A stretch of DNA of 64,000 nt. Origin: Deltaproteobacteria bacterium (lineage in GTDB: Bacteria; Desulfobacterota; Binatia; Binatales; Binataceae). Location: NCBI GenBank assembly GCA_027317185.1, contig DAHVFB010000002.1:1-64000 (forward strand). Reading direction: 5' to 3'. The notes beneath the pieces are model-generated. The model was not told the DNA's origin. It did not search any database and saw only the letters and a list, made by a program, of their open reading frames with translations. Shown piece after piece: positions 1,827-56,484 of the stretch. How positions within the stretch are numbered: the first letter of the stretch is position 1; each line of letters starts with the position of its first letter. A program made the translations under genes and the position numbers.

Positions 1827-2858
1827 TCACCCACCCTTTGCGCCGAGGCCGAGTTCGGCCATCATCGTGGCCTGCCGGGCGCAGGCGGCGGCTAGTTCTT
1901 CCTCGAACAGGCCCGCATGCGGGCCCAGGCGATCGTAGACCGGAGCCAAAGCTCTGGCCGCTGCGATCGCCAATGACATCCAACGATCGCACCACGCCCG
2001 CATCACGATGCGGTTGTCGTCGGCGTTGAGCAAGCCGGCCGCGGTGGTCATCCGCACCAACTCTTCGGTCCAAGCCTGATTGCGCCGCCGGTCGCGCTCG
2101 GTGGTCATGATGATCATCGGCGTGATCGGATCGCCATGGCGCGGCGCCTGGCGACGTACCAGGCGGCTGACTCCAATCTCGGTGGTGATTGGATCGATGA
2201 TCAGATTTACCGCGAACGCCAATTCGGCCCAGTCCTCGGTCGCCATCAGCGATTCCACTATCGCCCGCAACGGCTGATATCGCGGTTCGCTGAGCCAGCG
2301 CTGCTTGGCGCCCTGGTCTTTGAAGCCTTCGATATTGGCTTCGAGCGCCATCAGATAAAGCACGGTTGATTGCGCATGCCTGATGCGATCGACCGCTTCA
2401 AAACAGAGCACGTTGCCGAGCGTGTCGGAAAGCGCTTCCCGTTGTGCGCGCGAAAATGCGCGGAAAAGCCCGTACTCGAAGAACGACCACACCCGGTAAT
2501 GGCCGGCGATGATTTCGGTAAGCCAGTCCGGATCGAATTCGCTGAACGCTCCGGCGCTGGCGGCGTCTTCGACGCAGCGCTCGATCGCGCGCTCCTGCTC
2601 CGCCTGCAACTTGACGTAATTGCGTTGCCACATGCTTGAAGGATCGCGGAAATCAAACCAATGCGGGTGTTGCAAACGGGTCGATTCCGGACGCCAGGCG
2701 GCGCGGCCCTCGGGCGTCAGCAGGTACCAACCCTGACGGTCGAAGACCGCGGGGTCGGGCTGCGTATAGCAGGTGACCGCCTCGTATTCGGACAGGCGGC
2801 GCTTGCGCGGTTTGATATAGGTAAAATCGCGGGGAGACTGCACGGCGGTGTTCATCAT
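1827..2858 (-). CDS. Soluble di-iron monooxygenase hydroxylase, beta (small) subunit
   Basis: A 343-residue ferritin-like helical subunit, the non-catalytic partner that packs against the alpha subunit. The N terminus (FTYIKPRKRRLSEYEAVTCYTQPD) resembles PrmC/MmoY-type subunits. Further on come a WFDFRDPSSMWQRNYV segment and long amphipathic helices (YRVWSFFEYGLFRAFSRAQRE; WAELAFAVNLIIDP). The start ATG at 2858 overlaps the alpha-subunit stop as ATGA, so the two subunits are translationally coupled. The frame is open upstream to 3242, but that extension lies inside the alpha gene. No gamma-subunit gene follows; the coupling protein comes next. Confidence 0.9.
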   Translation of the reverse strand: MMNTAVQSPRDFTYIKPRKRRLSEYEAVTCYTQPDPAVFDRQGWYLLTPEGRAAWRPESTRLQHPHWFDFRDPSSMWQRNYVKLQAEQERAIERCVEDAASAGAFSEFDPDWLTEIIAGHYRVWSFFEYGLFRAFSRAQREALSDTLGNVLCFEAVDRIRHAQSTVLYLMALEANIEGFKDQGAKQRWLSEPRYQPLRAIVESLMATEDWAELAFAVNLIIDPITTEIGVSRLVRRQAPRHGDPITPMIIMTTERDRRRNQAWTEELVRMTTAAGLLNADDNRIVMRAWCDRWMSLAIAAARALAPVYDRLGPHAGLFEEELAAACARQATMMAELGLGAKGG

Positions 2859-4360
2859 TGCTGCCTCAATGGATCGCGAATCTCGTAGCGCGCCGCCCGG
2901 ATGTGGTCGATCGTCCACATCTGTTCCTGATTGAGCCAGGGCTGCGCGATCAGCGTCTTGCCATCGGCGCGCAGCAAGCCATTCTCGACGATAAAGTCGG
3001 CCAGGTCGTAACCGTCGAACAGTTCGTAAAAGGTGTCGTAAGCAAGATACCGATGCGGCTCCTGATCGAAGATCAACTCGCACTCGGGCGTGCAAAACGC
3101 ATGTCGTTTTCCGGCGAATTCCTTGATCCGGCAGGTCGAAATGTCGGGGCGGGGAAACACGCACGGCATCTGGCATACCCGGCATAGCGGCGGCAGGCTG
3201 GGAAACATCGACAGCGCCAACTCCCCGTTGCGCGGATCGCAACGCCGGCGATATTCATCCCAGAATTTCCCATATTGGCCGTGCCAGCCGGGATACTTCA
3301 GCTCGAACCAATCCATGTCCCGATTCGTGAGTGGATCGAAACGCCAGTACTGAAGCGGCCACGCCGCGAAGCCAACCATCGCGGCCGAATGCCCCATCCA
3401 TGGCACCCGATCGCGCGCGGCCGCAAAAGTGCTTGGCACCTTGAGGCCGAATGGCGCCAGCCGTTCGATATACGATCCGACCCAATCGTTATCGATCCAT
3501 TCACGCCATTTATCGAGGTAGGAGAAACTGCGGTTGGTCTGGAAATAATCCCACACCACGCTCAGAAATGAATCGATGAAGGCGTGCTGACGCCAGAAGG
3601 CGCGATCGAAATCGATCTGCAGCGCCGGCAGGTTATCGGGATTGGAGACCACCGCCGCGAGGGTCGAGTAGCCATTCGCCATATGGCGCGATTCGTCGGA
3701 TTGGATACTGAGAAAAACCGACGGTGTCACCTGGTCGCCATTGGCGGCAGCAATTTCCGTCAGCGCGACGAAGATCGAATTGGTATAGGCGGTCTCCGCC
3801 ACCACCTGAAGATTGAGCGCGCCTTCGATCGGATCGCCGACGAAAAAAGCCTCGAACGCCGCCCGTGCCGCGCGATTGAAAATATTGGTGCCGCGAAGCT
3901 TGAATCCTTGCGTGAAGCCCTCCGGATCGGCGGCATGCCGGGCGAAATAGCGGCTCAGGTAGGCCTCCTGATTTGTGTGCCGCACTTCGTCGAGCATCTG
4001 CGCCAGATAGCCCTGGCGGAGTTCTGCATTATTGATGGTCTCGATTAGCTGGCCCATGTTCTTCATGGCCGCATATTCACCGAAGTTCAGGATCGGCAGC
4101 GCCGCCTTCATCGCTTCCATCCAGCGCGGCTCGGCTTTGGCCGAGACCTGACCGCGGGCTAGCGCGTCTTCCATCGATCCGTACTGGCGATTGTCCTTTT
4201 CCTCTTCCATCGAAAGGTAATCGCGGATCAGGTGACGAAAAGGATCTTTGGTCTTCGCGGGGATTTTGTACTTGGTCGGGTACCAGTCGGGCTTGGACGC
4301 ATACGAGGGCTCCCAATCAAAATCCTTTACCCGGTTGTGCGCTTCGATTAAGTTTTGCAT
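2855..4360 (-). CDS. Soluble di-iron monooxygenase hydroxylase, alpha (catalytic) subunit
   Basis: A 501-residue catalytic subunit carrying the carboxylate-bridged di-iron centre that activates O2 to hydroxylate or epoxidise hydrocarbons. All six expected ligands are present: E95 (FGEYAAM), E125 and H128 (DEVRHTNQ), E189 (ETAYTN), and E223 and H226 (DESRHMANGY). The C-terminal half holds a Cys-rich stretch (CRVCQMPC, then CTPECE) resembling a YHS-like metal-binding region, known in some family members. It is first in an operon of order alpha-beta-coupling-reductase without a gamma subunit. The propane/alkene-type groups of the superfamily are more likely than true methane monooxygenase. Substrate cannot be read from the sequence. 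Confidence 0.93.
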   Translation of the reverse strand: MQNLIEAHNRVKDFDWEPSYASKPDWYPTKYKIPAKTKDPFRHLIRDYLSMEEEKDNRQYGSMEDALARGQVSAKAEPRWMEAMKAALPILNFGEYAAMKNMGQLIETINNAELRQGYLAQMLDEVRHTNQEAYLSRYFARHAADPEGFTQGFKLRGTNIFNRAARAAFEAFFVGDPIEGALNLQVVAETAYTNSIFVALTEIAAANGDQVTPSVFLSIQSDESRHMANGYSTLAAVVSNPDNLPALQIDFDRAFWRQHAFIDSFLSVVWDYFQTNRSFSYLDKWREWIDNDWVGSYIERLAPFGLKVPSTFAAARDRVPWMGHSAAMVGFAAWPLQYWRFDPLTNRDMDWFELKYPGWHGQYGKFWDEYRRRCDPRNGELALSMFPSLPPLCRVCQMPCVFPRPDISTCRIKEFAGKRHAFCTPECELIFDQEPHRYLAYDTFYELFDGYDLADFIVENGLLRADGKTLIAQPWLNQEQMWTIDHIRAARYEIRDPLRQQ

Positions 4361-20726: not shown

Positions 20727-21920
20727 ATGAAAACGGTGATGGCCGATAGGCGCTGGATTAAAGATCATGCCGACCTCGGCACCGGTCCGGTATCGACCGA
20801 AACCTGCACTTCAGCCGATTTTTTCGAGCGCGAGCGCGACGGTATCTTTCGCCAACTCTGGTTGAATATGGGCCGCGAGGAAGAGCTGGCGGAGCCGGGC
20901 GACTATATCGTCCGGGATTTGGCGGTAGCCAATACCTCGGTGCTGATCGTGCGCGGCAAAGATCGGAAGATCCGCGCGTTTCACAACGTCTGTATGCATC
21001 GTGGCAACCGGCTGGTCAATGGCGCCAGCGGCACCTGCAATAAACTCCTTGTCTGCCGGTTTCATAGTTGGGCCTACGATCTTCAGGGTCAATTGCAATG
21101 GGTTTCCGATGAGGCGAATTTTTACGATATCGACAAATCCAATCTGGGGCTGAGGAGCATCGCGGTTGATACCTGGGAAGGTTTTATCTTTATCAACCTG
21201 AGTTCCTCGCCGGCGCAGAGCCTGCGCGAATATCTTGGTGGATTAGTGCAACAGATCGGTGGCTACCCTTTCCAGCAACACTCCCTGCTCTGCCGCTATC
21301 GGATCGAAGAGCAGGCCAACTGGAAGGTGATCCTCGATGCCCAAAACGAGGTTTACCACCTGCCCTTCCTGCACATCGCGTATCCCGATTTTTGCCCCTT
21401 GAACGAGCAGAAATTCAGCCGCATCCAGAGTTTCAAGCGCTTCGATCGGCATACCGTATATTCGGTCGAGAACAACGCCGAGCATCAAATGACCGCGACC
21501 GAAGCGATCGCCGCACGCACCTTCCCGGGCGATGGAACCTTGAGCCCGTCGATGATCGGCTGGTTCGACTTTTACACAATATTTCCGAATTTCTGTCTGA
21601 TTTTTCTGGGCGGGAATTATCTGACCTACAACATCTGGCCGGTATCGGTATCGTCATCGGTCTGGGAAGTGAGTGTTTATCAACCGGCTACCGATAAGCC
21701 GAGCGAGCGATTCGCCGAAGAGTATGCCCGCTGCCGCCTGCGCGATCTGCTGCAGGAGGACGCGAGCAACCATGAGGCGATTCAAGCCAGCTTGAACTCC
21801 GGGGCGCTTGCGCATTTCCAGCTTCAGGACGAGGAAATACAGATCCGGCATTTCCACAAGATGGTTCGCGAGCATGCCGAGGCGCGCGGGCAATCGGTTT
21901 TGGCCGCAGCCGGTAAATGA
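20727..21920 (+). CDS. Rieske non-heme iron oxygenase, alpha subunit
   Basis: A 397-residue ring-hydroxylating or demethylating oxygenase. The Rieske cluster ligands are C89-M-H91 and C110-x2-H113 (CMHRGN; CRFHSWAYDLQG). The mononuclear iron site is near DAQNEVYHLPFLH, with H211 and H216 and E208 at the bridging position. No beta subunit or reductase gene is adjacent, so it probably belongs to the homomeric, carnitine/phthalate-like class and borrows electrons from elsewhere. ATG 20727 is preceded by AGGAGCGCGGTT. A small protein gene follows after 44 bases. It is divergent from the acyl-CoA dehydrogenase. Confidence 0.92.
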   Translation: MKTVMADRRWIKDHADLGTGPVSTETCTSADFFERERDGIFRQLWLNMGREEELAEPGDYIVRDLAVANTSVLIVRGKDRKIRAFHNVCMHRGNRLVNGASGTCNKLLVCRFHSWAYDLQGQLQWVSDEANFYDIDKSNLGLRSIAVDTWEGFIFINLSSSPAQSLREYLGGLVQQIGGYPFQQHSLLCRYRIEEQANWKVILDAQNEVYHLPFLHIAYPDFCPLNEQKFSRIQSFKRFDRHTVYSVENNAEHQMTATEAIAARTFPGDGTLSPSMIGWFDFYTIFPNFCLIFLGGNYLTYNIWPVSVSSSVWEVSVYQPATDKPSERFAEEYARCRLRDLLQEDASNHEAIQASLNSGALAHFQLQDEEIQIRHFHKMVREHAEARGQSVLAAAGK

Positions 21921-38637: not shown

Positions 38638-38903
38638 TCCCATTGAACCAATCCGCGGTGGAGCTTCGGCGTGCTCTGCACGCTGCCGGCGCCTTCCGCG
38701 CTTCCACGCCAATTGCAATTCCCTCTTCTCTGGGCTATGGGGAAACGAACGCTTGCAAGGATAATAGGTATCCAGGGCCGTTGCCTGTGCGATCGGGGCA
38801 TGTAGCTCATCCCTAAGCCATACCCAACACCTGATCCTCACGACTACAGCTCTGTAACGCTCTCTTACGCGGAGACGCCATAGAGAGAATGAGGGAAAGT
38901 GCC
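38638..38903. other. Gap between the activator and the UbiD-like gene
   Basis: No gene supported. It holds the promoter region of the UbiD-like gene by position. I saw no confident -24/-12 (TGGC-N-TGC type) or -35/-10 pair. A long reverse frame crossing it is a shadow. Confidence 0.25.
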
Positions 38904-40388
38904 ATGGCGGTAAAGAAAACCGAACTAGGAACGGGTTTTGGATGTCCAGCCGACCTGCGGGAATACCTCGAAGTTCTCGAGCGCGCAGGTGAACTTCGGC
39001 GGGTAAAAGCCGAGGTCGATTGGCAATATGAGGCTGGCGCAATCAGCCGGCTGGTCAACGAGCGCCGAGGTCCTGCCCCTCTTTTCGAAAATGTCAAGGA
39101 CTATCCTGGCCAGCAGATAGCGGCGGTGTTGATGGGGCCCAGCAAGCCGGCGCTCCATGCCCGCATCGCTTTGGCGCTGGGTTTGGATAAGAACACTCCC
39201 ACCCTCGACCTGATCGAAATCGTGCGGGCGCGGCTGAAAACTCCGTGTGATCCGGTGGTGGTCAGAAAGGAGCAGGCGGCATGTAAGGAAGTGGTGCTGA
39301 CCGGCAAGGACATCGACCTTAACAAGTTCGCCTTCCCCTGGATTAAAGAGACGCTCGATGGCGGACGCTACCTCGGGACCTGGGATATCGTTGCGCTCAG
39401 AGATCCCGATACCGGATGGCTCAACTGGGCCACTTATCGCTGCATGGTCAAGGACGGGAATCATTTCGCCATACTGTTGATGCCGGCGGCCCAGCATGGC
39501 GGCGCGATTTTGCGCAAGTACGAAGCGATGGGCAAGCCGATGCCGATCGCGATTATGATCGGCGCCAACCCGGCTTGTCATCTTGCCGCCGTCACCGCGA
39601 TGGATCATGGCGTAGCCGAAGTCAGCGCAGCCGGCGGACTGATGGGTTCGCCCATTCCGATAGTGCGATGCGAAACCAGTGACCTCGAGGTCGCGGCCAG
39701 CGCCGAAATGGTGATCGAAGCGGAGATCCTGCCAGGCGATCGCGTTGATGAGGGCCCCTTCGGCGAGTACACCGGGCATTCCGCCCATCGCGAAAAGTGT
39801 CCGCAGGCGCGCGTGACCTGCATCACACATCGCAAGAACCCGATTCATACGATGGCTAACATGGGTAAGCCGTGGGATGACGCCGCCGCCAATATGTCGG
39901 TGATGACTCCCGCGCAAGCCAAAAATCGCCTCGAAGCGCATGGATTGGCGGTCAAAGCGGTTTACACGCTGCCCCCGGATGTCATGGTGGTCTCGTTGAA
40001 ATCAGGGCCCGGATTGCAACAGCGGGTGGTTTCGACGCTAACTTCGGTACCGCGCCTCGCAATGAGAGGGATTGTGTTTGTCGACGAGGACGTTGACGTT
40101 ACTGACGTCGAAGATGTCTGGTGGGCGATTGCGAGCCGTATGAACCCGGAGAATTTCGATACGATTAAGGGAATCGGGGCCAATACTTTATACCCGTGGC
40201 TGACCCCCGAGATGCGTGAGCGAAAACAGCTTCCCTTCTTCATCATCGATGCCACATTTCCCTATCATTGGCCGCAAGAGTATCGCGACGCGCACACCAA
40301 GGTCTCGGATTTCAAACACGGATGGACAGAAGAGACCAAGCGAAAGGTTTTGGCCCGGTGGAAGGAATACGGCTACGGTGACCTTTAA
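38904..40388 (+). CDS. UbiD-family (prenylated-FMN) decarboxylase
   Basis: About 494 residues. Reversible non-oxidative (de)carboxylase of aromatic or alpha,beta-unsaturated acids, using prenylated FMN and Mn/K. The family's FGEYTGH segment is present (DEGPFGEYTGHSAH), as are the metal/cofactor region around NWATYRCMVKDGNHFAI and AMGKPMPIAIMIGANPACHLAA. No UbiX (flavin prenyltransferase) gene is in the window; it would be needed elsewhere. ATG 38904 is preferred, with GAGGGA about 10 bases upstream; ATG 38889 is an alternative. A strong hairpin follows its stop. It probably feeds or drains an aromatic acid pool in the catabolic region. Confidence 0.92.
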   Translation: MAVKKTELGTGFGCPADLREYLEVLERAGELRRVKAEVDWQYEAGAISRLVNERRGPAPLFENVKDYPGQQIAAVLMGPSKPALHARIALALGLDKNTPTLDLIEIVRARLKTPCDPVVVRKEQAACKEVVLTGKDIDLNKFAFPWIKETLDGGRYLGTWDIVALRDPDTGWLNWATYRCMVKDGNHFAILLMPAAQHGGAILRKYEAMGKPMPIAIMIGANPACHLAAVTAMDHGVAEVSAAGGLMGSPIPIVRCETSDLEVAASAEMVIEAEILPGDRVDEGPFGEYTGHSAHREKCPQARVTCITHRKNPIHTMANMGKPWDDAAANMSVMTPAQAKNRLEAHGLAVKAVYTLPPDVMVVSLKSGPGLQQRVVSTLTSVPRLAMRGIVFVDEDVDVTDVEDVWWAIASRMNPENFDTIKGIGANTLYPWLTPEMRERKQLPFFIIDATFPYHWPQEYRDAHTKVSDFKHGWTEETKRKVLARWKEYGYGDL

Positions 40389-40727
40389 CCGGATTTGGAC
40401 AAGGATCGAATAACCGGCGCAGGTGAGCGGCGCGCAACCGCTCACCTGCGGCAGATTGATGGAACCGTCGCGGCCTGGACGAGCGTTGCTGCAGATTCGC
40501 GTGGTGACCATCCAACGCCGACGCCTGAACTAGAAGTCCGCCCGCTCAACGAGGCTGATATAGGCCAGGATGCTTCCAGCAAGCTCGCCTTTCTCGACGG
40601 CCAGACGGAGCGCTTTAACCAAATTGCGAGTGAGTTCTTTTTCGGCAAGAGCAGTTGATGGGGACTGCGGCAGTCATGCTATGTTTTGGCAGCCTTCAAG
40701 GGTAAATTCGGCCCGGCGGTGAGGACC
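40389..40727. other. 339-base gap after the UbiD-like gene
   Basis: Holds a strong hairpin near its start (40419-40449). A + strand frame 40395-40658 (TTG start, 87 codons) reads through that hairpin; its second half looks protein-like, but no ribosome site precedes it, so it is not called as a gene. The right end carries GGTGAGGACC before the flavin oxygenase ATG. Confidence 0.3.
40419..40449 (+). terminator. Hairpin downstream of the UbiD-like gene
   Basis: GCAGGTGAGCGG (40419-40430) and CCGCTCACCTGC (40438-40449) are exact reverse complements around a 7-base loop. It begins 31 bases after the stop. No T tract follows, so termination would need Rho or serve RNA protection. Confidence 0.5.
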
Positions 40728-41774
40728 ATGGAGCAGATCAGTTTCGGAGTTTTCGACCATATCGAGCGGACCAGCGGCAGCGCCAATTTGCATACGCTTT
40801 ATCATGAGCGGCTGCGGATGATGGAAGAGTACGACAAGGCGGGCATGTTCGCGGTTCATATCGCGCAGCATCATGCCACGCCGCTGGGGATGGCGCCGTC
40901 GCCCAACGTATTTTTGGCCGCAGCCGCGGAGCACACCAAGAAGCTGCATTTTGGACCGCTGGTTTATCTGCTGCCGTTTTATCAGCCGTTACGCCTGATC
41001 GAGGAAATCTGTATGCTCGATCATCTTAGCGGTGGCCGTTTGGAAGTCGGCGTCGGGCGCGGGGTTTCGCCCTTTGAGCTGGGACTGCATCGGATTCCTT
41101 TCTACGATTCGCGCAATATTTATAATGAGGGGCTCGAAGTGCTCCGGCGCGGCCTCAGCAATGACCACCTCACCTTCAATGGCAAGTACTATCAGTTCGA
41201 GAACGTGCCGATGGAACTGCGGCCGCTACAGCAGCCGCATCCGGATTTCTGGTACGGCACGATTAACGTCGAGAGCACGATATACGCGGCGAAGCATGGA
41301 ATGCATGTGGTGACGCTGGGACCGGCCAGCGATGCCGCGAAAGTCGTGGCCGCATATCGCGAGGCCTGGGATCCGAAGGGTCCGGATAATCTGAATCCGC
41401 ACGTGAAGTCGCCGAAAATCGGAGTGCAGCGCCATATCTTCGTGGCCGAAAGCGACGCGGAAGCCTATCGCATCGGGAAAGAGGCGTTCAAAGTTTTCTT
41501 TCATAATATTCAGAAGATCTGGGCTGACTTTCACACTTCGACCAGCGTGTTCCCGAATGACTTCGACCTCATGCTGAAGGCGGGCGCGTTCATTGTCGGA
41601 TCGCCTTCGAAGGTGCGCGATGAACTGGCGCGCGTCGCCGAGGTAACCCGGACCAATTACCTGGTGCAGGTGTTTTCGTGGGGCAACCTGACGCTCGATC
41701 AGTCGCTCGGTTCGCTGAATTTGTTCGCAAGCAAGGTGATGCCCGATCTGCAGAAGATTGCGCTCGCGGCCTGA
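40728..41774 (+). CDS. LLM-class flavin-dependent oxidoreductase
   Basis: A 348-residue luciferase-like TIM-barrel enzyme. N terminus MEQISFGVFDHIERT, then HHATPLGMAPSPNVFLAAAAEHT, LDHLSGGRLEVGVGRGVSPFEL, FNGKYYQFENVPMELRPLQQPHP and a C-terminal GSPSKVRDELARVAE; all are standard for the bacterial luciferase family (FMN or F420). The partner reductase or F420 system is not seen. ATG 40728 follows GGTGAGGACC. The gene lies between ubiD-like and queC genes and probably acts as a monooxygenase in the catabolic region; the substrate is unknown. A second LLM enzyme is at 26807. Confidence 0.88.
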   Translation: MEQISFGVFDHIERTSGSANLHTLYHERLRMMEEYDKAGMFAVHIAQHHATPLGMAPSPNVFLAAAAEHTKKLHFGPLVYLLPFYQPLRLIEEICMLDHLSGGRLEVGVGRGVSPFELGLHRIPFYDSRNIYNEGLEVLRRGLSNDHLTFNGKYYQFENVPMELRPLQQPHPDFWYGTINVESTIYAAKHGMHVVTLGPASDAAKVVAAYREAWDPKGPDNLNPHVKSPKIGVQRHIFVAESDAEAYRIGKEAFKVFFHNIQKIWADFHTSTSVFPNDFDLMLKAGAFIVGSPSKVRDELARVAEVTRTNYLVQVFSWGNLTLDQSLGSLNLFASKVMPDLQKIALAA

Positions 41775-47183: not shown

Positions 47184-47298
47184 TAGGGTCGTGAGAAGCA
47201 TGCCGTTGGCCTGAAATCGCAATAAGCCTGCGGCTTAACTGGCAGTCGCGGCGCCAACGATGGTAACTTTGCAGTTGATCGACGGAGGCCGCTGTCCG

Positions 47299-48147
47299 AT
47301 GGCTGACCACGCCCCGCGCCTGCGCGCACGCCTGGATCATATCGCGATCAATTCGCCGGAGCCTGAGCGGATGGCCGAGTTCTACCGGCTCGCGATGGAC
47401 CTGCGGCTCGAGCGGTTGAGCAACAATCTATGGTTGTGCGAAGCCCCGCGCCGCCGGCTTTTGATCGTTAAGGGCGAGGCCAAAACCCTCGCGTTCGGAG
47501 CCTATGCGGTCGATGAGCCGGACTTACTGGCAGCGGTTCGTAAACGCGTGGTTGACAGTGGTGCGAAGCTTGAGCGATCGGAAAGTTCGCTGCTGACCGG
47601 CGATAGCTTGATGGTGAAAGATCCGGATGGCAATCGGATAGCATTCGGGATGCCGGTCCCGGAAAAATCTTCCGATACTCCCGCGCTGCCGGCCCGGCTT
47701 CAGCATCTGGTATTTGGCAGCGACGAAGTAAGCCGCATCGCCGACTTTTATGAACGGGTTCTGGGCTTCACGGTCAGTGACCGCGTGTTCGACAAAACCG
47801 GCAAGCTGACCAATTGCTTCTTCCGCGCCGATCGCGGCGACCATCATATACTGGCGATTTTTCCGTCCGATCAAAAAAAGCTTGACCATCATTGTTATGA
47901 GTCGATCGATTGGGGTTCGATTCGCGACTGGGCCGATCAATTATCCAGCCGTGGGGTTTCCATCGCCTGGGGACCGGGCCGCCATGGTCCAGGGGCCAAC
48001 CTGTTTATCATGGTCCGCGATCCGGACGGCAACTGGGTCGAGATTTCCGCCGAGCTGGAACAGGTCGAGGCCGAGCATCCGGCCGGCGTATGGGAACATG
48101 GTCCGCTGGTGGCTAATCGATGGGGCCAGCCGCGCCTGACTGTGTGA
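47299..48147 (+). CDS. Extradiol ring-cleavage dioxygenase (VOC/type I)
   Basis: About 282 residues, two glyoxalase-like (VOC) modules. Second-module residues fit the iron triad: H136 (ARLQHLVFG), H197/H198 (LDHHCYESIDW) and E248 (NWVEISAE), with HHILAIF also present. This is the BphC/2,3-dihydroxybiphenyl-dioxygenase plan, cleaving a catechol next to the hydroxyl. The frame opens at 47260; ATG 47299 is a better start (GGAGGCC upstream). It is the fourth gene of the meta-cleavage set, so the ring-opener lies last. The preferred catechol cannot be read. Confidence 0.85.
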   Translation: MADHAPRLRARLDHIAINSPEPERMAEFYRLAMDLRLERLSNNLWLCEAPRRRLLIVKGEAKTLAFGAYAVDEPDLLAAVRKRVVDSGAKLERSESSLLTGDSLMVKDPDGNRIAFGMPVPEKSSDTPALPARLQHLVFGSDEVSRIADFYERVLGFTVSDRVFDKTGKLTNCFFRADRGDHHILAIFPSDQKKLDHHCYESIDWGSIRDWADQLSSRGVSIAWGPGRHGPGANLFIMVRDPDGNWVEISAELEQVEAEHPAGVWEHGPLVANRWGQPRLTV

Positions 48148-51749: not shown

Positions 51750-52838
51750 TCAGTTCAGACCGTAGAAGCGGCGCGAATTATCGTACAAAATCCCGCGCTT
51801 GTCGCTCTCCGTGAGCTCCGACGATTCCAGCACCTCGTCGATCTCATGCTTGCACAATTTGGCATCGACCTCATGCGGGAAATCCGATGAGAACAGGAAA
51901 GGCTCGCTGCCGAGCGTCTTGACCGCATGCGCCAGGTCGGGCTCGTCGCCTTCCACCCCGACGTAGATCCTGCCGTCGTGAATCAGCTTGCGCACATAAG
52001 CGCGAAAGTCGCCGTCTTTGGAAACCTTAACCAGCCGATGATCGGGATCGAATGGCGTATGGATCTTGAACGATCCTTCGGCGCGCTCGATCGCGGTCAG
52101 AAACCAGCCGACTCCCGCTTCGAGGTAGGCAACCTTGAGACCCCCAAAGCGATCGAAAATCCCGTTGTAAACCATGCTCACCAGCGCCCGCATCATGCCC
52201 ATCGGATGGCCCAGCGCGTGATAGGCGGCGAACACATTAAGGTCGTCGAGGCCCATCTGATCGTGACATCCGCCGTGAAATGCGACACAGGCGCCGAGCT
52301 TGTCGGCCTCGGCATACAGCGGCCAGTAATCCTGCGAACCCGGATGGGCCTTGATGCCGTTGCTCGGCAGCATCACGCCGCACATCCCGAGGTCTTTCAC
52401 CGCGCGCCGCAGCTCCTTCACCGCGCCGTCCATGTCGCGCATCGGAACCAGGCCCATTCCCTTCAAACGGGAACTCTTGCGCAAATAGGCGTCCTGGAGC
52501 CAATCGTTATAGCCGCGCACGGCGGCGTTGGCGAAATAAGCGTCGGTGATCTTGCCGCAGGCGAGCCCGGCCGTAGGGTACAGGACCGAGTACTCGATCC
52601 CGGTATCCTCAAGGAACTGCACCCACTCCTCGGGCCCGACCCGTTTCACGCTCGCCCGCGTCATCATCTCTTCGATAAAGCCATTATCGATAAAAGCGGT
52701 ATGGAAGTGATCAAGCGGCGGAAAAGTTCCAGTCAGCCGCGCATAGCGTTTGTACGGCTCGGGAATATAGTCGGCGATCGCCGCATTGTCCTCGAATACG
52801 TGTCCGTCCCCATCAATAACTTTCATGTTTGCGGTCAT
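51750..52838 (-). CDS. Amidohydrolase-2 family protein
   Basis: A 362-residue metal-dependent TIM-barrel hydrolase or decarboxylase, shorter than the member at 17748. The N-terminal D-x-D-x-H motif appears as IDGDGHVFED. CVAFHGGCHDQ, LKVAYLEAGVGWF and FSSDFPHEVD carry the later metal and catalytic residues (His, Glu, Asp). ATG 52838 follows GGGAGCGTCTC; the second Met (52826) is an alternative. It ends at the shared hairpin with the SDR operon. Members of this group act on aromatic or keto acids; the substrate is unknown. Confidence 0.9.
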   Translation of the reverse strand: MTANMKVIDGDGHVFEDNAAIADYIPEPYKRYARLTGTFPPLDHFHTAFIDNGFIEEMMTRASVKRVGPEEWVQFLEDTGIEYSVLYPTAGLACGKITDAYFANAAVRGYNDWLQDAYLRKSSRLKGMGLVPMRDMDGAVKELRRAVKDLGMCGVMLPSNGIKAHPGSQDYWPLYAEADKLGACVAFHGGCHDQMGLDDLNVFAAYHALGHPMGMMRALVSMVYNGIFDRFGGLKVAYLEAGVGWFLTAIERAEGSFKIHTPFDPDHRLVKVSKDGDFRAYVRKLIHDGRIYVGVEGDEPDLAHAVKTLGSEPFLFSSDFPHEVDAKLCKHEIDEVLESSELTESDKRGILYDNSRRFYGLN

Positions 52839-52917: not shown

Positions 52918-54300
52918 TTAACTGTTCGGCGGCACCGGCACAGCCGGTTGTAGCCATTTGGACAGGAAATACCAGGGCAGGCCAAAGGCGACCACCGCCA
53001 GACTGGTAAGGGCTTCCTCGGGACGGGTAAAAAGTACATACAGTACGATCCACGACAGGACCGCGACGTATGCCGCCGGCAACCAGGGATGGCCGGGAAT
53101 GCGAAATGGCCGCGTCATCCCGGGCCGGCGCACCCGCATCACGATCAATGAGGTAACGCTTAACCCCGAAAAGATGATAACTGCGAACCCGGTATACAGC
53201 ACCACTTTTTCGAACGCACCAAAGAACAGAATGAGAACGCTCGACCAGATGGCCTGTAACACCATCGCACGTGCGGGCGTGCCGAAAAACGGATTGATGG
53301 AAGCAATTCCTGACGGAAATACCCGATCGCGCGCCATCGCGAAGTACACCCGCGGCCCCGCGACCACCATCGCACTGGCCGAGTTCAGTATCGCCAGCGC
53401 CAGCACCGCCGTGATTCCTACCGCGGCGGCCGGCCCAAACAATTTTACCGAGGCTTTTTCCGCGACGGCCAGCACCCCGCTCATGGCGGGAATCGGCAAC
53501 GCGTAAAGGTACAGCAGGTTCATGCCGGCATATAGAAAGATCACGACTGCGATGCCGATCAGCAGGGCGCGCGGAAGGTTTCGCTGCGGATCGCGAATCT
53601 CCTCGGCGACGTATGCGGCGGAGTTCCATCCGCTGTAGGCATAAAGCACGAAAATCAGGGAGACGGCGGCGTTGCCGTGCGCCCGGCCATGCGAACCGAA
53701 GTTGGCGAAATTGCCATGCCCCGAAAGGAACCCACCTACGATTAGCGCGACGATCGCAGCGATGGTGCCGACAGTCAGTATCCGTTGCAGCACACCACCC
53801 GCGCGCAGGCCAGAGATATGCACCGCGGTGAGCACAGCGAGCACCGCGATCGCGATGAGCTTGCCGCCGATTCCACTGGCATCGGGGATCGCGGTCAAAT
53901 GATGCATATAGCCGATCAGGGCGAGCGCAGCGGCGGCAATCGCACCGCTAAAGCCGACGAAAAACGAGGTCCACCCGCTCAGGTAGGACACCAGCGGACC
54001 GAAGGCCTCGCGCAGATAAACATATTCACCGCCGGCCTCGGGCATCGCGGCGCTGAGCTCGCTGTAGGACAGCGCGCCAATTGATTCGATCAGGCCGCCG
54101 GCGATCCACAGGCCGATCAGCCACCACGGCGATCCGATATCGCGCGCGATAAACCCGGAGGTGGTGAAGATGCCGCTGCCGATCGTGTTCGCGACCACCA
54201 GCGCCACTGCGACGTCGAGACCGATTGTACGGCGCAGTGGCGCGCGGCCGGGCCGCGCGCCACCTGCTCCTGCTTCCGAAGCGGCAGCCGGTATCGCCAC
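52918..54300 (-). CDS. APC-family amino acid permease
   Basis: A 460-residue inner-membrane protein with about 12 helices. The first helix carries VANTIGSGIFTTSGFIA, the substrate-binding GSGIF-type motif; ALSYSELSAAMPEAGGEYVYL is the second conserved block. FVLYAYSGWNSAAYVAEEIRDPQRNLPRALL is the helix 6-7 signature, strongly diagnostic of the amino acid-polyamine-cation superfamily. GTG 54300 opens the frame. It lies 79 bases upstream of the amidohydrolase on the same strand and 9 bases after the repeat-protein gene. Import of an amino acid or amine-containing compound is probable. Confidence 0.92.
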   Translation of the reverse strand: MAIPAAASEAGAGGARPGRAPLRRTIGLDVAVALVVANTIGSGIFTTSGFIARDIGSPWWLIGLWIAGGLIESIGALSYSELSAAMPEAGGEYVYLREAFGPLVSYLSGWTSFFVGFSGAIAAAALALIGYMHHLTAIPDASGIGGKLIAIAVLAVLTAVHISGLRAGGVLQRILTVGTIAAIVALIVGGFLSGHGNFANFGSHGRAHGNAAVSLIFVLYAYSGWNSAAYVAEEIRDPQRNLPRALLIGIAVVIFLYAGMNLLYLYALPIPAMSGVLAVAEKASVKLFGPAAAVGITAVLALAILNSASAMVVAGPRVYFAMARDRVFPSGIASINPFFGTPARAMVLQAIWSSVLILFFGAFEKVVLYTGFAVIIFSGLSVTSLIVMRVRRPGMTRPFRIPGHPWLPAAYVAVLSWIVLYVLFTRPEEALTSLAVVAFGLPWYFLSKWLQPAVPVPPNS

Positions 54301-54309
54301 GATTTTACG

Positions 54310-55161
54310 CTAGAAAAATCGTGGCACCAGGAAGGAATAAATGCCGTTGCGCACGCTGTCCGTAGTGAAAATTTCTCCATGCGCCGGATCGATCGCGATA
54401 CCACTGGGATGGATCAGATCGGTACCCGCGCCTCGAATGATCGCACGCGGCGCGATGTCGCCATTGTCACCGATGTTCCAGACGCCCACGAAGCCGAGCG
54501 GTCCGATCCATGGCAGTGGCGGCCCCTTGCAATCCTTCGCCGGTGCGAACCCACCGGGATCGTAGGGCGGAAGATATTTGATGTTGGTGGCAATCGCGTA
54601 AATTTTGCCATCGTAGACCTGGACGTGCCACACCCCCACGATTCCGGTGGTCGGACCCGCGATCACGTCGCGCGGCGCAACGTTTCCGTTGTCCGTACGG
54701 TTGAACACGAACAGTCCGCCGTTATGATGCCAGGTGTTTCGGCCGAGCAGGCTGCCGACCACGGCCAGATTGCGATCCGTGTCGATCGCAACTCCCGCCG
54801 TATACCACAGTCCTGTCTTCGACCCCATGATGATGCGTTTGGGCGCAATGTTGCCGTTGCCGTCGAGCGGAAACACCAGTAGGGCATCGGTCCGCGAGTC
54901 GGCGACCCACAGTTCATTATTCTTAAGGTCCACCGCAGGCTGATATGGCCCGTGAAGCTGGGTCTTGGGTCCCTGGATCACCCGAATCGGCGCAGCTTCG
55001 CCGGACGCATCGCCCCGGAAAAAGGTGATCGAACTGGCCAGCGGTTCGGTGGAGATGATTACATCGTGCGCCGGATCGTAGACGATTCCATGCGCGACGC
55101 GTGTAAGCTTGGTCTTCTGTCCTTCGATTATCCGTTCCGGCTCGCTATTTCCACTTGCCAT
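54310..55161 (-). CDS. Beta-propeller-like protein, downstream half (follows in-frame TGA)
   Basis: 283 residues from ATG 55161. Contains about five blades of the same repeat as the gene before it: (I/V)-F-x-R/G-D-x(3)-G-N-x-A-P-x-R-x-I-x-G-P-x-T-x-L. It has no signal peptide and no good ribosome site (AGG touches the ATG), although the upstream half is exported. The frame is continuous with the upstream half: only one TGA (55195-55197) separates them, and the sequence between reads on as a blade. It is best seen as the second part of one 724-residue protein or a broken gene. ATG 55161 lies in the hairpin described at 55152-55172. Confidence 0.7.
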   Translation of the reverse strand: MASGNSEPERIIEGQKTKLTRVAHGIVYDPAHDVIISTEPLASSITFFRGDASGEAAPIRVIQGPKTQLHGPYQPAVDLKNNELWVADSRTDALLVFPLDGNGNIAPKRIIMGSKTGLWYTAGVAIDTDRNLAVVGSLLGRNTWHHNGGLFVFNRTDNGNVAPRDVIAGPTTGIVGVWHVQVYDGKIYAIATNIKYLPPYDPGGFAPAKDCKGPPLPWIGPLGFVGVWNIGDNGDIAPRAIIRGAGTDLIHPSGIAIDPAHGEIFTTDSVRNGIYSFLVPRFF

Positions 55162-55172
55162 CCTGGCAAATG
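55152..55172 (-). promoter_or_regulatory. SECIS-like RNA hairpin after in-frame TGA
   Basis: In the minus-strand RNA, CAUUUGCC pairs with GGCAAGUG (one G-U pair) around the loop AGGAU. The stem starts 22 bases after the TGA at 55195-55197, and the loop 30 bases after it. Bacterial selenocysteine elements usually have a stem of several pairs with a small loop bearing G in its first two positions, about 16-37 bases after the UGA. This fits by eye, but the loop is not the GGUC-type of E. coli fdhF. Function is hypothetical. Confidence 0.3.
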
Positions 55173-55194
55173 CCGCAATACGCGGATCGCTTAC

Positions 55195-56484
55195 TCAGTT
55201 CGGGACTAGCAATACGTCCCGCTTGGTGTCGTACGCTATCGCCATCGGATTGCCGAAGCCGGCGGCGGGAGTGCCGGCGGGCGCGTTGCGCAAGATCCGT
55301 TTTGGAGCCACGTTGCCAGAGGCGTCAAGGTCAAACACCTCGGCCTCATGGCCGAAGTTTGCCACCCATAGCTCCTTGCGAATCGGATCGAACGCCACGC
55401 CCATCGGATGGATGATGTGGGTCAGTGGCCCGCTGAGCGTGCGTACCGGCGCCACATCGCCGTTATCTCCGCGATGAAAAATCAGAACCTCGTTCGACGG
55501 CTCCTGGGCCACGGCGATTAAATTGTTCAGATTGTCGACCGCGATTCCGGTCGGCCAGTCGAGCTGGGTTTTCGGCCCTTGAATTACCTGCAGCGGGGCC
55601 GCATCCCCCTTCGCATCGCCACTGAACACTTCGACCGACGGGGGATAGTAATGTCCGCCGCCGTTGTAGTCCGCGTCCCAGTAGCCGCGCGACCAATTGC
55701 CATAATTGGTCACGAAAATCTTATCGCTCTTTTCGTCCCAGGCCACCCCATGCGGGTCGGCGAGTTTAGTCTTTAGTCCGCGGATCGACCGCAACGGTAA
55801 CGCAGCGCCCTGCGCACCGAGGCGATAGAAGATAATCTGGGCGTTATGCTGGATTGCAACCGCCATCTGATGGTGCTTCTGGCTGAGTGCAATTCCATAC
55901 GCGCCATGCGGTACGGCCAAAGCGCGCGATTTGAAGTCGCCGTTCGCGGTATAGGGAAACGCGGCGACATCATCGCCAATATCGTTTTCGGTGGTATACA
56001 GTTCATGCCGAACCGGGTCGAGCGCCACTCCGGCCGCGAAGGACAGATAGGTGGCGGGCCCCTTAATCCAGCCCTTGTATGGGGTTATGTCTTTCGCTGA
56101 TGGCGGTCCGCCGGCGTCGATCGAGTAGACCAGCGCGCTTTTCAGATTGGTATCGCTTAGAACCGCCACCCCGTTGCGCGGATCGAGCGCGATGCCATTG
56201 AACTCGGGATATGGATCTTCGAGCGCACGGCATGGAGCTACTTCACCGCCCGGAATCTTCGACAAGACGGCTTCGAACTTCTCCGACACGCCTAAATTGT
56301 TAACCGAGGCATTCACCGGCGATCGCGAAGGTTGATTCATGCCGGATGGCGCAGCGCTGCCGTCCGGGGAGGACGCCGCGATTGCTTGATTCGATGAAAA
56401 CCGGTTGCTGCCGTTGGTAGGTAAGAGCGCGAAGGCCGTGATGACGGCCGCGCCAATAGCTATCCTGAACCTTATCGATCTCAT
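55195..56484 (-). CDS. Exported beta-propeller-like repeat protein, upstream half
   Basis: 429 residues, start ATG 56484. A signal peptide (MRSIRFRIAIGAAVITAFAL, then LPTNGSN) precedes repeats of about 45-60 residues, such as GDAAPLQVIQGPKTQLDWPT and GNVAPKRILRNAPAG, each ending in a hydrophobic strand (GIAVD, LWVAN). The pattern resembles NHL/Kelch-like surface propellers. The reading frame stops at TGA 55195-55197 right after VLLVPN, yet the next in-frame codons continue the same repeat. Either the gene was truncated by a nonsense change, or the TGA is read through or decoded as selenocysteine. Its function is unknown. Confidence 0.8.
   Translation of the reverse strand: MRSIRFRIAIGAAVITAFALLPTNGSNRFSSNQAIAASSPDGSAAPSGMNQPSRSPVNASVNNLGVSEKFEAVLSKIPGGEVAPCRALEDPYPEFNGIALDPRNGVAVLSDTNLKSALVYSIDAGGPPSAKDITPYKGWIKGPATYLSFAAGVALDPVRHELYTTENDIGDDVAAFPYTANGDFKSRALAVPHGAYGIALSQKHHQMAVAIQHNAQIIFYRLGAQGAALPLRSIRGLKTKLADPHGVAWDEKSDKIFVTNYGNWSRGYWDADYNGGGHYYPPSVEVFSGDAKGDAAPLQVIQGPKTQLDWPTGIAVDNLNNLIAVAQEPSNEVLIFHRGDNGDVAPVRTLSGPLTHIIHPMGVAFDPIRKELWVANFGHEAEVFDLDASGNVAPKRILRNAPAGTPAAGFGNPMAIAYDTKRDVLLVPN

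Follow-up and report, generated by a model that had tools for sequence, protein, structure and literature searches.

Is the single in-frame TGA at positions 55195–55197 of the stretch analysed here a stop codon, or is it decoded as selenocysteine (Sec)? The stretch, referred to below as the window, is 64,000 nucleotides (nt) long (contig DAHVFB010000002.1 of assembly GCA_027317185.1) and comes from a Deltaproteobacteria bacterium of the family Binataceae whose genome assembly comprises 4.1 Mb in 249 contigs. On the minus strand, a frame of 725 codons runs from an ATG at 56484 to a terminal TAG at 54310–54312, with this TGA, codon 430, as its sole in-frame TGA; a first-pass annotation of the window had described two minus-strand open reading frames (ORFs) that share one frame across the TGA, and our analysis confirms this frame. 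The TGA is very probably decoded as Sec, because UGA and cysteine (Cys) exchange at exactly this column in homologous genes, a hairpin resembling a bacterial Sec insertion sequence (SECIS) covaries downstream of it, and the genome encodes a complete sel machinery. The features of the locus are as follows.

54310..56484, minus strand: entire gene for the predicted selenoprotein of 724 residues, Sec included, ending in the TAG stop
55198..56484, minus strand: first half, 429 residues ending in VLLVPN, the extent expected from a gene finder
55195..55197, minus strand: predicted Sec codon, in-frame TGA at codon 430, in the same aligned column in relatives
55173..55185, minus strand: proximal hairpin CCGCG/UGCGG, after the TGA and ahead of the SECIS-type hairpin
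55152..55172, minus strand: bacterial SECIS-type hairpin of 8–9 base pairs (bp), apical loop AGGAU (55164–55160), 22 bases past the TGA
54310..55161, minus strand: second ORF of the mechanical listing, its own ATG starting inside the SECIS loop

UGA and Cys occupy one aligned column

Genes of this family were sought in 57 genomes, the window's own and those of relatives. Some match was obtained in 20 of them; the 24 full-length genes, including that of the window, lie in four genomes, and the rest are partial propeller matches. Exactly one TGA is found in 22 of the 24 genes, always in one aligned column, and the other two, both from genome G002, have Cys there. In G002 (3.9 Mb), which belongs to the same family as the window genome, we counted 19 full-length paralogues, of which 17 have TGA and two have Cys (loci L032–L036, L038–L041 and L044–L050); this one predicted selenoprotein family appears to have expanded greatly there.

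In a scan of named genomes, the column was readable at 46 of 48 loci, with TGA at 44 and TGT at two; among the acidobacterial loci, 41 of 43 readable ones carry TGA and two carry TGT. Three genes from the count above recur among the 46 under public names, and the two unreadable loci are a fragment (L107) and a weak partial match in Nocardioides (L113). In addition, the frame is broken around the Cys copy L112, and L109 contains an extra TGA as well as runs of N. Of the three search patterns, one had Cys at the site and could only have biased the scan towards Cys forms. A class-wide search yielded a member at an expectation value (E) below 1e-60 in 5 of 148 genomes, each best match with one TGA; at most seven candidates per genome were scored, so that copy numbers from this search are too low. 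The in-frame UGA, one of the marks by which we recognized a bacterial selenoprotein, is found at the UGA/Cys column of the homologues. Judged from these sequences, the family spans two bacterial groups, Binataceae-type and acidobacterial, which the first-pass annotation had not foreseen. The best-scoring class-wide match (G129:C219:6253-8406; 1016 bits, one TGA) lies in a genome from another family of the class; this genome is 67% complete, and the match may reflect transfer or bin contamination.

Among proteins, 1413 homologues passed a database search, and the following figures refer to the 120 listed of these 1413. All 74 proteins longer than 470 residues carry Cys at the Sec column, which, together with the Cys in 2 of the 24 close genes, bears out the earlier proposal that homologues might have Cys in place of the TGA. 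The remaining 46 have 380–470 residues, and two of them are the window genome's own two family genes. Homologues that end at this position, which the first-pass annotation had named as evidence against Sec, thus occur on paper: 45 of the 46 half-length entries terminate in the motif preceding the TGA, and the last one in a similar stretch. These entries are probably, and most simply, products of gene finders that read UGA as stop, because the frame continues in all genes whose DNA was read.

Substitution patterns are alike on the two sides of the codon. Related copies differ mostly at third codon positions, and in each of the five pairs compared they do so to much the same degree on either side of the TGA; between the window gene and its closest relative, the third-position pattern is 0.51 before the TGA and 0.43 after it. 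These values point to coding constraint on both sides of the TGA.

A covarying hairpin follows the UGA

The SECIS-type hairpin has the stem CAUUUGCC/GGCAAGUG and was located at 55172–55152, with the loop AGGAU and the 22-base distance that the first-pass annotation had given. When excised, it folds at –10 kcal/mol, and none of 200 shuffles folds as well, while the stability of the 60 nt taken together is ordinary (z –0.94, equalled or exceeded in 36 of 200 shuffles). The proximal hairpin alone folds at –4.9 kcal/mol, with 17 of 200 shuffles as good. It is covariation, not energy, that argues for the reality of the hairpin.

A protein-motif filter applied to the window and 65 loci returned 74 places, 72 of them distinct: 69 UGA sites (22 from Binataceae-type genomes and 47 acidobacterial) and three Cys sites, with the Cys copy at L050 missed. 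In the gapless alignment of the UGA sites, columns 13–17 pair with 21–25 in the proximal hairpin and columns 26–33 with 39–46 in the distal, SECIS-type hairpin. Across both hairpins, 94.6% of 897 cells are paired (92.2% in the proximal and 96.2% in the SECIS-type hairpin), compared with 86.3% in shuffles and 35.8–50.2% when the pairing was slid. Changes on both sides are seen in four of five proximal pairs and three of eight SECIS-type pairs; this total of 7 of 13, as against 4.8 in shuffles, was reached in 1 of 500 shuffles, and the 84 double-changed cells, as against 29.6, in none of 500.

Columns 30 and 42 are the most telling pair, with U–A in 43 sites, C–G in 25, U–G in one and no mismatch. 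Both are third codon positions, of Phe (TTT/TTC) and, except in L093, of Ala (GCA/GCG), and the exchange therefore tells more than mere conservation, being partly synonymous. Other covarying pairs are 16–22 (C–G in 52, A–U in 12) and 15–23 (G–C in 56, C–G in 7), and L093 shows a single swap from G–C to C–G. By comparison, pair 30–42 forms in one of the three Cys sites of the motif filter, and in four Cys copies that were refolded the SECIS hairpin is not in its usual place. In the acidobacterial loci L069, L071, L072 and L074, a second UGA copy lies close by, whose proximal hairpin may form in an offset register, CCAG/CUGG, as assigned by eye.

Published rules for bacterial SECIS (bSECIS) elements, cited here from the available sections of a 2026 catalogue (PMC13188914), specify an apical loop of 3–9 nt on an upper stem of 4–16 bp, a G in the first two loop positions, mostly as N1-G-[G/U]-N-N2 with N1 and N2 paired, a distance of 16–37 nt from the UGA to the apical loop, and a minimum free energy of at most –7.5 kcal/mol. 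The folded RNA fits these rules. Its loop is of 3 or 5 nt on 8–9 bp; G followed by G or U occupies the apical loop in all 69 sites, with N1–N2 a standard pair in 56; the distance is 30 nt in the 5-nt-loop reading (columns 4–33) or 31 nt in the 3-nt reading, in line with the bacterial spacing claimed in the first-pass annotation; and the energy is the –10 kcal/mol given above. A covariance model built from the sites matched only the two family genes in the window genome, both of them training sequences (150 of 3714 first-look candidates scored); the next matches within the window are at chance (9.9 bits, E 2.5). An Rfam scan of the window gave no matches.

The genome encodes the Sec machinery and uses TGA as stop

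The second mark of a bacterial selenoprotein, the joint presence of selA, selB, selD and tRNA-Sec in the genome, was also found, and the sel genes that the first-pass annotation had pointed to are all there. SelA, selB and selD score 569.9, 364.4 and 382.4 bits, each above its curated cut-off (the same searches exceed the cut-off in one, two and two of 14 control genomes, respectively). The tRNA-Sec scores 71.3 bits, with the anticodon tca called by ARAGORN. Among the acidobacterial genomes that bear the gene, selB is above the cut-off in 22 of 25. Two further observations concern the machinery itself. The window genome's selD (L063, G000:C111:49955-50878), which adjoins selB, has one in-frame TGA and is likely a selenoprotein itself, and in G012 a single contig bears two tRNA-Sec genes separated by about 4 kb (L053:6544-6639 and L053:10728-10823).

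TGA is still an ordinary stop. In the window it terminates 12 of the 18 other Pfam-supported genes, and five G002 genes among the 24 of the family also end in it; a genome-wide reassignment of UGA is ruled out by these stops.

The two halves form a predicted double propeller

Both halves of the window protein contain NHL repeats above the Pfam cut-off, the mark that we required of an NHL propeller, and the full-length model, which is confident, predicts two six-bladed NHL propellers. The TGA junction falls inside a predicted blade, in keeping with the earlier claim that the blade ending at the TGA continues beyond it. The N-terminus resembles a signal peptide and no ribosome site is apparent ahead of the second ORF; on both points we agree with the first-pass annotation, by eye only and with no tool applied to the signal peptide.

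In an alignment of 81 rows (the window, 27 UGA loci and 53 database Cys forms), the Sec/Cys site is the sole Cys column conserved throughout (81 of 81), and a fixed redox pair is thereby ruled out. Cys at residue 652 is present in 22 of 24 close genes and is not family-wide; an N-terminal Cys is found in 48 of 81 rows and is missing from the window protein.

Several propeller families are known that may be likened to the window protein. Methanethiol oxidase/SELENBP1 is a propeller-type protein with a reactive Cys and is not known to be UGA-encoded. Peptidyl-alpha-hydroxyglycine alpha-amidating lyase (PAL) is a metal lyase. Its structure (PDB 3fvz) shares 12–14% identity with the window protein, a likeness compared in overall fold only. 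The best structural matches are the NHL propellers of TRIM2, TRIM3 and Thin (PDB 7qrv, 7b96, 7qrw and 6xg7), but these are animal binding domains with 14–17% identity. No selenoprotein or Sec-like site is named among the structural matches listed, an absence that carries no weight. Foldseek with the full model returned generic double propellers with low template-modelling (TM) scores, and a PDB sequence search gave partial NHL and propeller matches only. Some Cys forms are named in the database as YncE or 6-phosphogluconolactonase-like propellers, and many of those among the matches listed carry precomputed Lactonase, SGL and Arylesterase domains. The halves of the window protein are below the Pfam cut-offs for these three domains, and YncE (NF052280; 14.9 of 400 bits) and 6-phosphogluconolactonase (NF008258; 20.5 of 370 bits) were rejected, both being far below the equivalog cut-off. 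Neither an NCBIfam model nor an enzyme family from Pfam or NCBIfam is above cut-off for the window protein.

Alternative readings of the UGA

The possibility that the UGA is read as Cys, Trp or another residue by a near-cognate or special tRNA, through programmed read-through or a selC-like tRNA-Cys, draws on the Cys that replaces it in the Cys-form homologues and on the selC-like tRNA-Cys species mentioned in a review (PMC7609411, cited from its available sections). The window genome, however, encodes selA, selD and a 71.3-bit tRNA-Sec with the anticodon tca, the SECIS loop rule is obeyed at every one of the 69 sites, and the TGA stops of the window and family genes leave no room for general reassignment; this possibility is very unlikely. 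Even less can be said for two separate proteins, with a true stop at the UGA and coupled translation of the second half from a separate start. The first half does stand alone in databases and mechanical ORF lists, and the window has an ATG 33 bases past the TGA, but ATG, GTG or TTG stands there in just 35 of 69 UGA sites, so this start is not conserved, and the Cys forms are single proteins in all 74 cases among the matches listed. These two facts rule out the two-gene reading, which also sits poorly with a junction predicted to lie within a blade of a confidently modelled full-length protein and with the lack, by eye, of a ribosome site; its probability is slight. A recent nonsense mutation or a sequencing error in the window assembly, both raised in the first-pass annotation, would account for a single TGA and nothing further. 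Both are excluded by UGA at this column in 69 distinct sites from many related and acidobacterial assemblies, and by the similar constraint before and after the TGA; the chance left to them is negligible.

Several observations weigh against Sec decoding, or against the strength of the hairpin evidence. Further pair types number 16, not above the 14.9 in shuffles (117 of 500 as high), and pairs 27–45 and 17–21 are unpaired in 17 and 10 of the 69 sites, respectively. Kinship of the sequences inflates the shuffle tests. The hairpin overlies conserved codons, and its conservation, though not its covariation, could be driven by the protein; its decay in Cys-coded DNA was seen in four copies only. 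SelB is under the cut-off in three of the 25 acidobacterial genomes, in one as two adjacent pieces and in two as weaker matches only. The tRNA-Sec search is loose, with matches in all 14 controls and above the gathering score of 47 in five, and we therefore relied on the 71.3 bits itself and on ARAGORN.

Sec decoding, the first of the readings proposed earlier for this TGA, is thus the one that the evidence supports. SelB with Sec-tRNA(UCA) would bind the hairpin at 55152–55172, Sec would be inserted at codon 430 instead of termination, and the product would be one 724-residue precursor that is then exported. We infer actual Sec insertion, export and function from the features described here.

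Sec and Cys forms have interchanged repeatedly

A tree built with FastTree from 115 full-length rows (59 Sec and 56 Cys) implies at least 14 Sec/Cys interchanges, an approximate count from a quick method; masking of the Sec column was confined to the Sec rows. Seven rows were left out, L066–L068 as duplicates and L103, L106, L107 and L111 as short, and long branches lead to L090, L105 and one G002 copy. The Binataceae-type rows form one strongly supported group beside an acidobacterial group.

Comparison with catalogued selenoproteins

The 2026 catalogue lists 119 prokaryotic selenoprotein families or subfamilies, and most characterized selenoproteins have a thioredoxin-like fold (PMC13188914, in the sections available). 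The window family shares with these catalogued proteins a UGA-encoded Sec, a bSECIS directly downstream, Cys homologues and sel genes, and differs from them in its predicted tandem propeller, its N-U-[VIN] motif and the lack of a fixed CxxU/UxxC partner. No propeller, NHL or matching-motif entry was noticed in Table 1 of the catalogue, compared by listed name, domain and motif, not by sequence, and the words NHL and propeller are absent from the available text of PMC7609411, PMC1794560, PMC13188914, PMC12013277, PMC9312934 and PMC5029168. In the open-access literature, we found no relevant paper on an NHL or propeller selenoprotein, or on Sec in Binatota or Acidobacteriota. As far as these sources go, the predicted selenoprotein family is new, and the tandem beta-propeller would be an added fold, not seen in the available sections of the 2026 catalogue (PMC13188914).

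The bacteria concerned are uncultured and have few recorded selenoproteins: in the available sections of the sources, four in Acidobacteria in a 2006 survey (PMC1794560) and three in a 2025 test genome of that phylum (PMC12013277). The richest bacteria named there and in a further source have 39–46 selenoprotein genes in total (PMC5029168, PMC12013277), as against 17 UGA copies of this one family in G002 alone. The Sec forms would have stayed hidden because gene finders cut them. Furthermore, Sec and Cys forms stand side by side, even within one genome, which makes a direct test of the benefit of selenium possible.

Gene neighbourhood and possible function

Genes around the locus in the window that bear on function are the following.

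52918..54300, minus strand: APC-type amino-acid permease (Pfam AA_permease_2)
51750..52838, minus strand: amidohydrolase (Amidohydro_2), further downstream, also near the L030 orthologue
47260..48147: glyoxalase/dioxygenase-fold gene
40686..41774: luciferase-like monooxygenase
38889..40388: UbiD decarboxylase
20727..21920: Rieske ring hydroxylase
2855..4360: methane/phenol-type hydroxylase

The permease begins, at its first possible start, 9 bases downstream of the selenoprotein gene and is likely co-transcribed with it; neighbour clustering places the same neighbour at L030 and L035. The last five genes listed look like a region of aromatic or hydrocarbon catabolism. Among 66 compared stretches, which differ in length, five loci (one Binataceae-type and four acidobacterial) have a small two-CxxCH protein adjacent or one gene away; from the motif, these proteins may be read as c-type cytochromes. 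A LigXa-type Rieske oxygenase is nearby at seven loci (four Binataceae-type and three acidobacterial; two identified by Pfam and the rest by clustering), the substrate of LigXa being a lignin-derived biphenyl. Outer-membrane TonB-type receptors are found near acidobacterial copies at 14 loci, by clustering, with one tested by Pfam.

Because of the permease and the two-CxxCH, LigXa-type, TonB-type and aromatic-type neighbours, this gene context hints at a periplasmic redox enzyme involved in taking up or degrading organic compounds, perhaps aromatic ones. Against this functional proposal stand the patchiness of the neighbours, which most loci lack, and the two-CxxCH proteins, for which no Pfam family was found in the three tested. 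We tentatively favour the function of a periplasmic oxidoreductase: its single selenolate, at the second propeller, would be either the redox group or a ligand to a metal, and c-type cytochromes are plausible partners for electron transfer. Alternatively, Sec might serve structure, scavenging or selenium storage, as in a binding propeller without enzymatic activity; this would agree with the binding domains that are the best structural matches to the model and with the lack of a family-wide partner Cys, and we consider such a role less likely than not. The periplasmic oxidoreductase, extended to the whole family, would amount, again tentatively, to a selenoenzyme of a new kind, with a Sec active centre in a double NHL propeller of the periplasm and with neither thioredoxin fold nor partner Cys, that would oxidize perhaps aromatic or plant-derived compounds and feed c-type cytochromes, with 17 Sec paralogues in one genome, many Sec/Cys swaps across Acidobacteriota and Binatota (to which we take the Binataceae-type genomes to belong), and Sec forms deposited in databases as half-proteins.

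A methyltransferase-like protein with a signal-like N-terminus, judged by eye, also lies near the gene in both groups (L030:7524-8357, L035:2716-3459 and L070:2617-3468), the assignment being made by Pfam for L030 and L070.
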